A DNA stretch of 64,000 nucleotides, from the NCBI RefSeq assembly GCF_001281315.1, contig NZ_CP012479.1, positions 1,798,001 to 1,862,000 of the forward strand, in the 5' to 3' direction. The notes under the pieces were generated by a model, which saw only the letters and a program-made list of their open reading frames with translations, was not told the origin of the DNA and did not search any database. This stretch comes from Arthrobacter sp. ERGS1:01. Its GTDB lineage: Bacteria > Actinomycetota > Actinomycetes > Actinomycetales > Micrococcaceae. The position numbers and the translations under genes are program-made. This document shows, one piece after another, positions 53,568-57,029 of this stretch (positions within the stretch are counted from its first letter, which is position 1; the number at the start of each line of letters is the position of its first letter).

Positions 53568-53626
53568 TTAATGCGCAGGCACGACGCCGGCGCGGCAGTA
53601 TTCGCAGGTTGAGAGGCAAGTTACAA

Positions 53627-54019
53627 GTGAGCAATCCGGTGCAACAATCCAATAATCCGGCCAAGCCCCCACTAACCCCGGCCGAAGACAAGCAGTGGGC
53701 CTTCCTGGCACACTGCGGCGGCATCCTTGGCTGCATACCGTCCGCGCTGATCTACAGGTACATGCGTGACCGCGGCCCGTTTACGGCCCAGGAATCCCGC
53801 GAGGCCCTGAATTTCACGCTGCCGCCCACCATCATTGCCGTGGTACTGAACCTGCTGGGCATCGTGGTCTCCGCCTTCGACCCGGGCGCCGGCACCCCGT
53901 TCTCCATGCTCGCACTGCTGATCTGGGTGGTTCTGACCGTCTGGTCGGTCATCGCGGCCATCCAGGTCAACAAGGGCAACCCCTATCGTTACGCCCTGAA
54001 CCTGCGCCGCATCAAGTAA
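53627..54019 (+). CDS. DUF4870 membrane protein
   Basis: This 130-residue small membrane protein of the DUF4870 family has the conserved PLTPAEDKQWAFLAHCGGIL start, FTAQESREALNFTL, and two or three helices ending with VNKGNPYRYALNLR. Function is unknown. The GTG at 53627 follows GAGAGG by about 10 bases. It lies 59 bases after the DUF3097 gene and may share its promoter. Confidence 0.85.
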   Translation: MSNPVQQSNNPAKPPLTPAEDKQWAFLAHCGGILGCIPSALIYRYMRDRGPFTAQESREALNFTLPPTIIAVVLNLLGIVVSAFDPGAGTPFSMLALLIWVVLTVWSVIAAIQVNKGNPYRYALNLRRIK

Positions 54020-54035: not shown

Positions 54036-54065
54036 GCGCTAGCCGATCGCGCGCTAGCCGATCGC
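54036..54065. repeat. 15-base tandem duplication at a stop codon
   Basis: GCGCTAGCCGATCGC occurs twice in tandem (54036-54050 and 54051-54065). The second copy holds the TAG of the lipoprotein gene on the minus strand, and the first repeats the same codons and stop. Confidence 0.9.
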
Positions 54066-54803
54066 GGCGAGGACTGCCTTGGCGGTGGCGCCGCTGGCCG
54101 CGTGGTCGCCCTTGATGTCAAAGACCAGTCCGGCTACCTGGACGACGTCGTTGCCGCCTTGGGCGATCGTGCCGTCGGCACCGGCGTAGGCCTTCCCGCC
54201 CACACCCGTGATGGGCACCGTAGGTGCCACCTGGGACGCGGATCCGTCGAGGCTGACCTTGAGCGCATCAAGCGCCACGGAACTCGAACTTGCGTAGACG
54301 GTGATGTTGAGCTCGGACTCAATGTCGGCGGCGGTGGTCCCGTTGCTGGTGTAGCTGCAGCTGGATATTCCGGTGCCTAATGCGTTTTCCTTGGCGTTCG
54401 TCAAGTCCAGTCCGGTGGTTTTGGACGCAGCCGCGGCGGGGAAGACGGCACAGACGTTGACGGCGTTCGCCGCCCCATTCGACCCACCGGATTGCGCGGG
54501 AGCCGACGCCGGCGTGGTGCTGTCCGCCGCGGAAGTGCTCGCAGTAGTGCTCGCGGCGGGGGCCGTGGTGGCGGCAGGGGCCTGGCCCGGATTTGTGCTC
54601 GTGGCGGCGGCTCCCCCCGAGGAGCATCCACTCACCAAGGCCAGACCCAGGACACAGGCTCCCATGGCGAGTACCCGGCGCTTGCGGCGAGGGGTGGTCG
54701 GCCGTGTCCTTGGCGGTTTGGTGGGCATGGTCAGTTCGGTAAGCATGCCGGCAACACTCATGTGCTCCGGTTCCGTGGGCCGGTCCGGGTATTCTGTGTC
54801 CAT
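54054..54803 (-). CDS. Secreted lipoprotein of unknown function
   Basis: The product is a lipoprotein with a Thr/Arg-rich cytoplasmic start, a hydrophobic segment (RVLAMGACVLGLALVSGC) ending in a lipobox, then a low-complexity Ala/Thr/Ser linker and a domain of about 130 residues with two cysteines (NVCAVFPAAAASKTTGLDL, SSCSYTSNGTTAAD). The domain is reminiscent of DUF3558-like lipoproteins but is not a firm match. The first ATG, at 54803, lies three bases after the LuxR-type gene, so the two are probably one operon; internal ATGs are alternatives. Confidence 0.75.
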   Translation of the reverse strand: MDTEYPDRPTEPEHMSVAGMLTELTMPTKPPRTRPTTPRRKRRVLAMGACVLGLALVSGCSSGGAAATSTNPGQAPAATTAPAASTTASTSAADSTTPASAPAQSGGSNGAANAVNVCAVFPAAAASKTTGLDLTNAKENALGTGISSCSYTSNGTTAADIESELNITVYASSSSVALDALKVSLDGSASQVAPTVPITGVGGKAYAGADGTIAQGGNDVVQVAGLVFDIKGDHAASGATAKAVLAAIG

Positions 54804-54806
54804 AAA

Positions 54807-56963
54807 TCAATGGTCGTTCCCGGGCAGCGCCGGCGGTAGTAGGGGAATGGCGGAGATCCGTCCCTCCTGCTGGGTGGACCAGTGGGCGGCCAGTGCCGTG
54901 CGGGAGTCGATTCCGAGGCGGCGGTAGATGTCGCCGAGGTGTTTTTCGATGGTCTTGGTCGAGACGTGCAGGGCTCGGGCGGCGCCGTCGTTGGTGTAGC
55001 CGCGGCTGATGAGGTCGGCCACCTGGCACTGCCGCGGGGTCAAGCGAAGGCGGGTCACTGAATCCTTGTCGCCGTCGGAGTGAAGGACCCGGGGCACCTC
55101 GGCCCGGGAGGGCAGATCGAGGACCTTGAGCACGCGGGCCACATGGCTTTGAACGGTGCGCGGCGATACCGCAAGTATGGCGGCGATCCGGATATTGGTG
55201 GCGCCCGTGAGGAGCAGTTCGGCCACCTCCCGTTCCCGGGGCGTCATGGGTGCCTGGGGCTCTCCGATCAGGCGCAGCCCGATGCTGCGCAGGTCGCGGC
55301 GGGCCAGCAACGCCAGCGATGTGGCTCCCAGCAGCGTTGCCTGGTCCCGGGCACTGGAGAGGGCAAGCCGGGCCGGCCAGGTGTCGGCCGCGTCGCCCAA
55401 CAGCGCCGAACCTGCCAGCAGCCGGGCGCGAGCCTCGTCGAGGTGGCCCGTGTTCCCGAGGGCAGTCACCGCGGCCTGCCCCGCCAGCACGGCCCCGGCC
55501 ACCACTTTGCCGTCGGCAACCGCCAATCGTGCCTCGATTCGTCCGATCGCGGCGGCGGCCATGCCCCCACGGGGCAACCCTGTCAGTGCCTCGGCGAGTT
55601 CACCCCACGCCCTGCCCGCCGGAATGTCGCCGAGGCTCAGTGCCGCCGTGACAAGCAGTTCATAGCCGTAGGCGCGGTCCACGAGCTGGATGTTCGGCAG
55701 CAGCGGGCCGCCCGCACCCCGCAAGAGGACGGTGGCCGCCGGCTGTCCGTGTTGAGCCGTCGCCAGTGCGTAGGCCGTGAGCACCATGGCACCGGCCACC
55801 AGGTAGCTGTGCGGGCATTGCGCCGCCAGTGCCTCGATGTCTGCGGCATGGTTGGCCACCTCCTCGTCATGGCCGTGCAGGGCGTCGAGGTAGGCGATGG
55901 AGCCCCGGACGATCAGTTGCAGCGCGAGCAGTCCGTGGCGTTGGGCTGCCTGTTCGACGTCCTGGGCCAGGGTGCCGGCCTCCGCGAGCCGTCCCTGGAA
56001 CAACAGGGCCCGGGCCAGGGTTTGGCCGGCGAAGACCGCCTCGGGCGGAGCGGTATCCGCCGAGGCAAGCCACACCCGACCGGCGACCGACTCGGCCAGG
56101 TCAAGCCGGCCAACCGACATGGCGGCCTCGGCCACAAGTGCCGCCGCCCAGTTTTCACCCGAAAGCTCCTCGTCGCTGAGCTCCAGGACCGCCGCGGCCG
56201 CAGATTCGGCGGAGGCGACGTCGGATCCGCCGCGCTCCAGCCCGCCCATTCCGGAGGACCATGCCGCCAAGGCCCGGAACAACAGGTGTTCGAAGCCCAT
56301 GGCCAGGCCGGCTTGGGCGTCGTCGTTCGCGGCAGTGAAGTCCGAATCGAGGATGCGTGCGAACGACCGCCCCGCCAGCAACCGGGCCCGGCGCGGTGAA
56401 GGCGCCTCCTCGCCGGCGAGGCCCGCGTCGACCAGGCGCCGGATTTCGGGAATGTCGCCGCGCAACATGGCGCGCTGCAAGGGTGCCTCGTCGGCGTGTG
56501 CGCAGGTTGCGCCGTGGATGGGGATCGGGCCGGTCATCCACGGCTTCAGATCGTGCTCCGCCCAGATCCTGGCCACAGCCCCCTTGCCGATCCCCGCCCT
56601 GGCCGCCAAGCTGCGGGTGCTCCAGTGCAATGCGCCGCCAGGGGGTGGTTCGGAGCGGGTCAGGCGGAGCACCTCGGCGATGGTGCTTGCGGGGATTTGC
56701 GGTCTACGTCCGCGGCCCGCGGCGATCACCCCGAGCCCGCCGGGACCGCCCTCCGCGAACCGGGCCCGCCAGCGGCGGACCGTGTCCGGGTGAACCGTGC
56801 AGGACCGGGCGATCCGCGCGTTCGCCACGCCGTCCGCCGCCATCAGCATGGCCCTTGCCTGCAGGATCACGCGGCCCGGCAACGCCGTGGACGCCGCCAT
56901 CGTGGTCAGTTCGGCGCGTTGCTCAGCGCTGACAACCAATGCCGGGGCCACCAAAGTTGGCAT
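54807..56963 (-). CDS. Regulator fusing an IS630-type transposase DNA-binding region to tandem LuxR HTH domains
   Basis: This 718-residue protein has three parts. Residues 12-142 read like the N-terminal half of an IS630 transposase: VNARIARS-like HTH (GVANARIARSCTVHPDTVRR), GRGRRPQI, then PPPGGALHWSTRSLAARAGI and IWAEHDLKPW, which is where the catalytic DDE domain would normally begin. That domain is absent. A helical, TPR-like centre (about 155-565) follows, with no Walker motif. The C-terminus has two LuxR-type HTHs: 573-628 (MTPREREVAELLLTGATN) and 640-700 (LTPRQCQVADLISRGYTN). It is expected to be a cytosolic regulator. A TACCGCGGTA palindrome lies just upstream of the start. Confidence 0.88.
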   Translation of the reverse strand: MPTLVAPALVVSAEQRAELTTMAASTALPGRVILQARAMLMAADGVANARIARSCTVHPDTVRRWRARFAEGGPGGLGVIAAGRGRRPQIPASTIAEVLRLTRSEPPPGGALHWSTRSLAARAGIGKGAVARIWAEHDLKPWMTGPIPIHGATCAHADEAPLQRAMLRGDIPEIRRLVDAGLAGEEAPSPRRARLLAGRSFARILDSDFTAANDDAQAGLAMGFEHLLFRALAAWSSGMGGLERGGSDVASAESAAAAVLELSDEELSGENWAAALVAEAAMSVGRLDLAESVAGRVWLASADTAPPEAVFAGQTLARALLFQGRLAEAGTLAQDVEQAAQRHGLLALQLIVRGSIAYLDALHGHDEEVANHAADIEALAAQCPHSYLVAGAMVLTAYALATAQHGQPAATVLLRGAGGPLLPNIQLVDRAYGYELLVTAALSLGDIPAGRAWGELAEALTGLPRGGMAAAAIGRIEARLAVADGKVVAGAVLAGQAAVTALGNTGHLDEARARLLAGSALLGDAADTWPARLALSSARDQATLLGATSLALLARRDLRSIGLRLIGEPQAPMTPREREVAELLLTGATNIRIAAILAVSPRTVQSHVARVLKVLDLPSRAEVPRVLHSDGDKDSVTRLRLTPRQCQVADLISRGYTNDGAARALHVSTKTIEKHLGDIYRRLGIDSRTALAAHWSTQQEGRISAIPLLPPALPGNDH

Positions 56964-56968
56964 ACCCC

Positions 56969-56982
56969 AATCTACCGCGGTA
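56969..56982 (-). promoter_or_regulatory. Palindrome and -10 box upstream of the IS630-LuxR gene
   Basis: TACCGCGGTA (56973-56982) is a perfect palindrome. On the minus strand it runs into TAGATT, a -10-like box five bases before the ATG, so the mRNA may be leaderless and the palindrome an operator. Confidence 0.4.
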
Positions 56983-57029
56983 TTTGCCGGTCAGCCGGGC
57001 CTTTGCCCCCACAGAACGCACCCGGGGAG

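Follow-up and report, generated by a model that had tools for sequence, protein, structure and literature searches.

Architecture of the fusion gene

The window, a 64,000-nucleotide stretch of DNA from Arthrobacter sp. ERGS1:01 (contig NZ_CP012479.1), carries a gene whose product begins like the DNA-binding region of an IS630 transposase (hereafter the head) and continues as a regulator with a TPR-type solenoid and two LuxR-type helix-turn-helix (HTH) domains. The features of the locus are listed below.

54807..56963, minus strand: fusion gene of 718 codons with an ATG start; the frame is open throughout; orthologue in Arthrobacter sp. GMC3 at L020:8001-9917
56523..56963, minus strand: IS630 bipartite DNA-binding region (head), residues 1-147; profile matches, identity to transposases and structure model
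56736..56876, minus strand: first HTH subdomain, PAI-like, residues 30-76; predicted helices 30-43, 48-55 and 59-76
56703..56717, minus strand: GRGRR linker between both HTH subdomains, residues 83-87; alignment of 22 rows
56556..56690, minus strand: second HTH subdomain, RED-like, residues 92-136; predicted helices; absent in the GMC3 orthologue
56484..56537, minus strand: fusion junction, residues 143-160; by-eye comparison of L041 with P0004; unfused relatives start nearby
55305..56498, minus strand: TPR-type helical solenoid, residues about 156-553; presumed sensor or dimer domain
55095..55250, minus strand: first LuxR (GerE) HTH, residues 572-623; Pfam
54876..55043, minus strand: second LuxR (GerE) HTH, residues 641-696; NCBIfam and PDB matches near 636-698
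56964..56995, minus strand: apparent IS630 left-end leader remnant with a worn inner terminal repeat and promoter; leader identity to L041 and L047
56969..56974, minus strand: TAGATT, a -10-like hexamer (TANNNT) 5 nt before the ATG; IS630 start comparison
54054..54803, minus strand: predicted lipoprotein gene, starting 3 nt past the fusion stop; probable operon partner

The preliminary description had proposed an IS630 head fused to tandem LuxR domains, and this layout was confirmed by the 718-codon frame from its ATG together with the Pfam and NCBIfam matches. Three Pfam families matched the head above cut-off, namely HTH_23 (residues 31-77), HTH_29 (36-87) and HTH_32 (61-133). For the NCBIfam model of the IS630 transposase, NF033545, positions 2-118 of its 299 aligned with residues 35-147 (E 1.2e-20; 74 bits, the full-length cut-off being 100), so the match ends short of the catalytic domain, and the DDE catalytic domain PF13358 (DDE_3) was not found in the fusion protein at E up to 1. 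The IS630-type region covers residues 1-147. The catalytic domain is gone, as had been claimed. The "helical centre" of the preliminary description is indeed helical and can be refined to a TPR-type solenoid; Pfam detected no AAA/STAND ATPase domain in the protein, and what precedes the LuxR domains is the head and the solenoid. GerE (PF00196) matched with E 7.5e-31 and its best stretch at residues 572-623, and with the second copy seen in the NCBIfam and PDB matches there are two LuxR-type HTHs in tandem.

The head has the layout of the Tc1/mariner and PAX type, with two HTH subdomains (by predicted helices) and a basic linker, GRGRR, of which G83, R84 and G85 are invariant across the 22 alignment rows. 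We take this linker to correspond in position to the minor-groove motif GRPR of Tc1/mariner transposases. The structure model of the head (ma89e917f4cb9) has a mean pLDDT of 82.5. The best three chains in a PDB profile search were the paired domains of Pax5, Prd and Pax8 (E 0.0098, 0.031 and 0.082), and the top 14 rows of a Foldseek search were, bar one, TnsB, Mos1, Tc3 and paired-domain chains, with no E value passing 0.001. In another comparison, single-HTH proteins (sigma factors, CRP) tied with the transposase and paired-domain rows.

IS630 origin of the head

The closest IS630 transposases were found outside the genus. The transposase of genome G425 (locus L041, 369-residue ORF) is 62% identical to head residues 1-146, and that of G927 (L047), shortened to a frame of 281 residues, is 65% identical to residues 1-147. 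Six Rhodococcus plasmid records, five annotated as IS630 transposase and one unannotated, are 61-62% identical to the head; these records matched the head only, and the fusion was not found in them. Within the genus and family, the IS630-like matches listed reach at most 47% identity over the head. Among the 84 head regions of a first tree, the 24 LuxR fusions fall within the IS630s; their clade of 25 (99/85) includes a single, long-branched GntR fusion. A second tree, of 80 rows, omits the GntR, MalT-like and P0061 rows and unites all 24 in one clade (96/82). A better score to an unrelated HTH family, which would have spoken against the IS630 assignment, was not seen, since the best specific match is IS630 and the tree places the head inside IS630.

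The junction can be read by eye. Where the DNA-binding region of IS630 L041 ends, its sequence is KPWKLDTFKISNDP, and the fusion protein P0004 has TPWKVDTFTFSNDP before it turns into the regulator. The transposase sequence stops near the start of the catalytic domain and the regulator begins at LQ-A-LLRGD; P0004, P0006 and P0009 have junction residues in common with the transposase, and the nearest unfused relatives begin at roughly the junction point. Sequence comparison supports the view that the protein is a chimera, in which an already existing regulator with a TPR part and two LuxR domains acquired, in frame, the left end of an IS630 element, and we hold its origin and anatomy as proposed here with high confidence.

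No intact terminal inverted repeats flanking the fusion gene were found, only a worn inner left repeat upstream of it. In a profile search of the window's own genome, no DDE_3 domain came up at E up to 0.001, and no IS end lay within 3 mismatches of the 23-base IS-end pattern. We therefore rejected the head as a recent or still mobile element, and we likewise rejected the regulation of resident IS630 copies, since none was found in the genome.

Leader and promoter

In six IS630 loci (L041, L047, L048, L049, L051 and L062), the left terminal repeat, which is CTAGTGGTCTGTC-like, starts 39-47 bases before the ATG, and right ends, read in seven elements, have a repeat that overlaps the stop codon of the transposase. 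These six leaders were compared first, with L041 and L047 as the main references since they are the nearest IS630s with DNA; on the fusion side, the window and GMC3 genes were used. Compared without gaps, the 32 bases before the fusion ATG agree at 19/32 with the L041 leader and at 20/32 with that of L047, and among the 1688 ATGs of the window only the fusion gene's own reaches these values. The other four leaders of the first set reach 6-12/32.

A wider check started from 28 IS630 head frames, of which 2 lacked a clear start. Over the remaining 26 leaders, identity to the window leader ranged from 4 to 20 of 32; L041 and L047 alone reach 19-20 and the others 4-17, the next best being L034 (17/32) and L030, L031 and L036 (16/32). 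Two distant leaders that lack a -10 box still reach 16 and 17 of 32. The GMC3 leader is 20/32 identical to that of the window; it matches L047 at 14/32, a value equalled or exceeded by 24 of the 1688 ATGs, and L041 at 11/32, which is not unusual.

The hexamer TANNNT lies 5 bases before the ATG in both fusion genes and 5 or 6 bases before it in the first six IS leaders (8/8 in all), a count that excluded leaders L050, L053, L058, L059 and L063. In the wider check, it was found 5-6 nt before the chosen start in 19 of 26 IS630 starts, and seven, L059 and L024 among them, had no box; in this set L063 repeats L062 and the start chosen for L028 looks wrong. The background in the window is 11 of 1688 ATGs. 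Transcripts that start at or near the start codon are common in actinobacteria, and the spacing of TANNNT fits such a transcript. A scan with the sigma-70 consensus found no promoter. The transposon's start codon was kept, as the preliminary description had supposed, and its leader apparently as well; the transposon promoter thus seems to have been carried along with the head.

Relatives of the regulator and trimming of the head

The relatives search matched 47 database proteins. Besides the window protein, 18 others (P0002-P0017, P0019 and P0020) align across the head, the TPR part and both LuxR domains, although P0008, P0014 and P0019 as annotated start 10-21 positions inside the head. In a TPR-LuxR tree of 44 proteins, one clade of 37 (98/99) contains every fused protein, and 7 unfused relatives (33-50% identity) fall outside it; for L021, the lack of a head was confirmed on the DNA. 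Within the clade, 24 proteins are fused, 3 carry a head remnant (P0021, P0025 and P0036), 4 begin inside the head and 6 are annotated without one (P0027, P0028, P0031, P0032, P0035 and P0037), for which start calling, contig ends or loss are possible reasons. Some of the shorter forms result from start calling, since P0030 is almost the same protein as the full-length P0016, and P0032 is almost the same as P0023. A single capture at the base of the LuxR fusion family is the most likely history. More distant unfused TPR-LuxR relatives (31-33%) occur at L042, L043 and L046, in L043 inside a 1603-codon open frame.

Arthrobacter sp. GMC3 (L020; by sequence the same as P0021, and also G013) has the fusion at the same locus, flanked by hemW and the lipoprotein gene. 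Its orthologue is an intact ORF of 638 residues (L020:8001-9917) from which residues about 85-144 have been lost in frame, a deletion that removes the head's second HTH together with most of the linker. This loss amounts to a natural deletion experiment. By eye, P0036 retains only about 15 N-terminal transposase residues, and P0025 has a head remnant that may be an effect of start calling. The relatives with a trimmed head indicate that the head is not indispensable. Misassembly of two separate genes, raised in the preliminary description as a way in which the fusion could prove false, is contradicted by the independent GMC3 assembly and by the 18 other proteins of the same layout.

Selection on the head

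We estimated dN/dS from one pair, the window and GMC3 genes, with the head taken as residues 1-82. The head gave 0.378 (bootstrap interval 0.21-0.67). Lower values were obtained for the TPR part (0.186), the LuxR part (0.140), hemW (0.056) and lepA (0.037), and the lipoprotein gene gave about 0.44. Across 63 IS630 transposases, a sample of those nearest to L041, 69 head positions reach a constancy of 95% or more. Of these, 67 are kept by the consensus of 22 LuxR fusions, 59 by that of four LacI-type fusions and 58 by the window protein, which departs at 11. In the two recognition helices, the mean residue frequency in fusions and transposases is 0.82 against 0.80 and 0.91 against 0.91. From dN/dS and residue conservation together, we conclude that the head is constrained, but less so than the rest of the protein. 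The preliminary description had argued from the uninterrupted frame that the gene is under selection or recent; an open frame alone proves no selection, but the dN/dS of this one pair and the conservation do point to it. The sequences thus support purifying selection on the head since its capture. As in known host-transposase fusions, a transposase region stands in frame with a regulator and is under selection, judged here by dN/dS from one pair. The 67 positions kept and a dN/dS of 0.38 also suggest that DNA binding was retained, and we consider that the head probably still binds DNA.

Distribution and neighborhood

The fusion is rare. A look across other Micrococcaceae, put forward in the preliminary description, found it in 2 of 345 family genomes, and within the genus it was present in 2 of 23. 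In the class, order and phylum samples, which overlap, it was present in 1 of 394, 1 of 396 and 1 of 396 genomes, always the window's own; the candidates scored per genome were the best 2 in these samples and the best 3 in the family. The 27 genomes of the class of G927 yielded no further fusion. A scan of 84,980 species genomes, a set from which the window's own genome may be absent, with two peptide patterns recovered GMC3, an unfused Jatrophihabitans relative and two weak LuxR matches. Most of the 47 matched proteins come from metagenome-type sources with short contigs, and a few lie on long contigs.

The lipoprotein gene was found in 2 of the 23 genus genomes, exactly the two with the fusion, which suggests that both act as one module. 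Its product is weakly DUF3558-like, below the cut-off, and profile searches gave no convincing family or PDB match. A gene for a DUF4870 protein (53609-54019) lies between this module and a DUF3097 gene.

Heads of this kind on other regulators

Residues 1-150, searched against proteins of about 395-1256 residues, had 36 matches, LuxR fusions among them. Four of the others (P0049, P0054, P0059 and P0060) are true IS630 transposases with PF13358. Another four, P0050-P0053, one of them from Actinoplanes sp. NPDC051411, are LacI-type fusions that retain the LacI HTH and the sugar-binding domain; P0055 is a single GntR-type fusion with an IS630 head; and P0056-P0058 are MalT-like proteins in which two tandem IS630-type heads are combined with an ATPase domain, a TPR part and a LuxR HTH. 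Between the head and the GntR-type regulator of P0055, an apparent degenerate remnant of the catalytic domain was seen by eye. P0061 (705 residues) has an IS630-type head and a C-terminus that Pfam does not name and that looks like an M29-type aminopeptidase by eye.

The LacI fusions form a separate clade in both head trees (100/100). An unfused LacI relative in G554 (L066) is 75% identical over residues 163-513, and its frame of 352 residues starts just before the LacI HTH. Derivation of the LuxR and LacI heads from a single capture is not favored by the tree and not rejected (AU p 0.115). The MalT-like heads are long-branched too and lie in a remote part of the IS630 tree, where they join one long-branched IS630. 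The idea that a transposase half was captured as a regulator is supported, with the correction that the event was not a one-off, like heads being found on LacI, GntR and MalT-like regulators.

Proposed mechanism and alternative explanations

Overall, we provide a putative mechanism for the captured head on the TPR-LuxR regulator, an explanation that we consider likely as a whole. The TPR solenoid would sense a ligand or a protein, as do domain III of MalT or Rap/NprR, and thereby control dimerization, and the LuxR domains would bind operators in target promoters and touch RNA polymerase. The head would provide a second, independent grip on DNA, whose first natural site would be the transposon end in the gene's own promoter. 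With such a site, the protein would be expected to bind its own promoter, to autoregulate there, and to loop to other sites or cooperate at them. The operon that it forms with the lipoprotein gene downstream would be the most likely target. That it autoregulates through the old IS end is possible but less likely than not.

The alternative that deserves most weight, although we judge it unlikely, is that the head is a passenger: the IS end would have given a promoter and a start codon, and the transposase residues would be tolerated, contributing at most to solubility or dimerization while eroding. The trimming of the head in GMC3, P0036 and apparently P0025 fits this explanation, as do its evolution at about twice the rate of the rest of the protein and the apparently kept promoter leader, and PMC12062965 says "is not involved" of a captured HTH in F-box A2 proteins. 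Against the passenger explanation stand a dN/dS with an interval under 1 (in one pair), a fusion consensus with all but two of the IS-constant residues, recognition-helix frequencies equal to those of the transposases, and 18 other proteins in which the head and the whole regulator stay together. We therefore favor the captured head as a working part of the regulator.

Silencing or sensing of IS630 elements, or of genes with their ends, through the head is improbable. The head has near relatives among IS630 transposases, and other genomes of the genus and family contain more distant IS630s, but the host genome searches gave neither DDE_3 nor an IS end within 3 mismatches, and the close IS630s (61-65%) lie outside the genus, the genus and family matches listed being at most 47% identical. 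We give still less credence to the view that the head is a common winged or paired HTH with a separate origin and only IS630-like: generic HTH profiles match too, but such an origin is very hard to reconcile with 62-65% identity over residues 1-146 or 1-147, the junction residues, the leader and the nested tree. The least credible explanation of all is an assembly artefact or an accidental run-on of two genes, for which we found no evidence and against which stand the independent GMC3 assembly, with the same neighbors and fusion, and the 18 further proteins of this layout.

Comparison with known systems

The fusion protein shares with the transposases of the IS630-Tc1-mariner group its start, apparently its leader, the bipartite DNA-binding region and the first junction residues, whereas it has no DDE domain and no intact terminal repeats that we could find, and a regulator is attached. 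LuxR regulators of the LAL/MalT type have in common with it a MalT-like TPR solenoid before a C-terminal LuxR HTH; the fusion differs in its two LuxR HTHs, its transposase head and the absence of a detected ATPase domain. TldR is likewise a bacterial regulator made from a transposon protein (PMC13418256). As a nuclease-dead TnpB, it is RNA-guided and belongs to another protein family, and it is not known to involve a domain fusion of the IS630-regulator kind.

PAX proteins likewise combine a Tc1-type transposase DNA-binding region with a regulator that retains a DNA-binding domain besides it, and the likeness of the paired domain to Tc1-like transposases suggests its derivation from one, according to PMC4901127. 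In contrast to PAX, whose partner is a homeodomain, the present fusion is bacterial, arose in a separate event and has a TPR-LuxR regulator as its partner. In host-transposase fusion genes such as SETMAR and KRABINER, described in PMC12062965, a transposase-derived DNA-binding region has likewise been joined to a host regulator, and this has happened repeatedly; those genes are eukaryotic, whereas the partners here are bacterial one-component regulators.

Significance

Among the papers listed from the open-access literature, judged by title and opening of the abstract and with most subscription papers outside this scope, we found none on a bacterial IS630-regulator fusion. P0004 and P0013 bear automatic labels such as "response regulator/transposase", so the chimera is present in databases. 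A review of recruitment in prokaryotes (PMC8987985), as far as its accessible part goes, names phage-type Xre and antitoxin types among transcription factors and gives no transposase example.

Capture of transposase DNA-binding regions is a recognized route to new transcription factors in animals. The LuxR fusion family provides a case from bacteria in which the IS630 kin are close, the junction is readable and the promoter apparently kept, with unfused relatives as the "before" state and with several kinds of partner regulator. The family allows direct tests of how a transposase head becomes part of a regulator, in genomes small enough for full site mapping. As a broader proposal, to which we give slightly less than an even chance, bacteria may repeatedly build transcription factors from the left ends of IS630 elements, which would supply a promoter, a start codon and a paired-type DNA-binding region together. 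If so, a regulator joined downstream would be expressed at once, and would gain a second grip on DNA and self-control through the old transposon end. Such genes would then be the bacterial counterpart of PAX genes, with LuxR, LacI, GntR and MalT-like fusions as examples.
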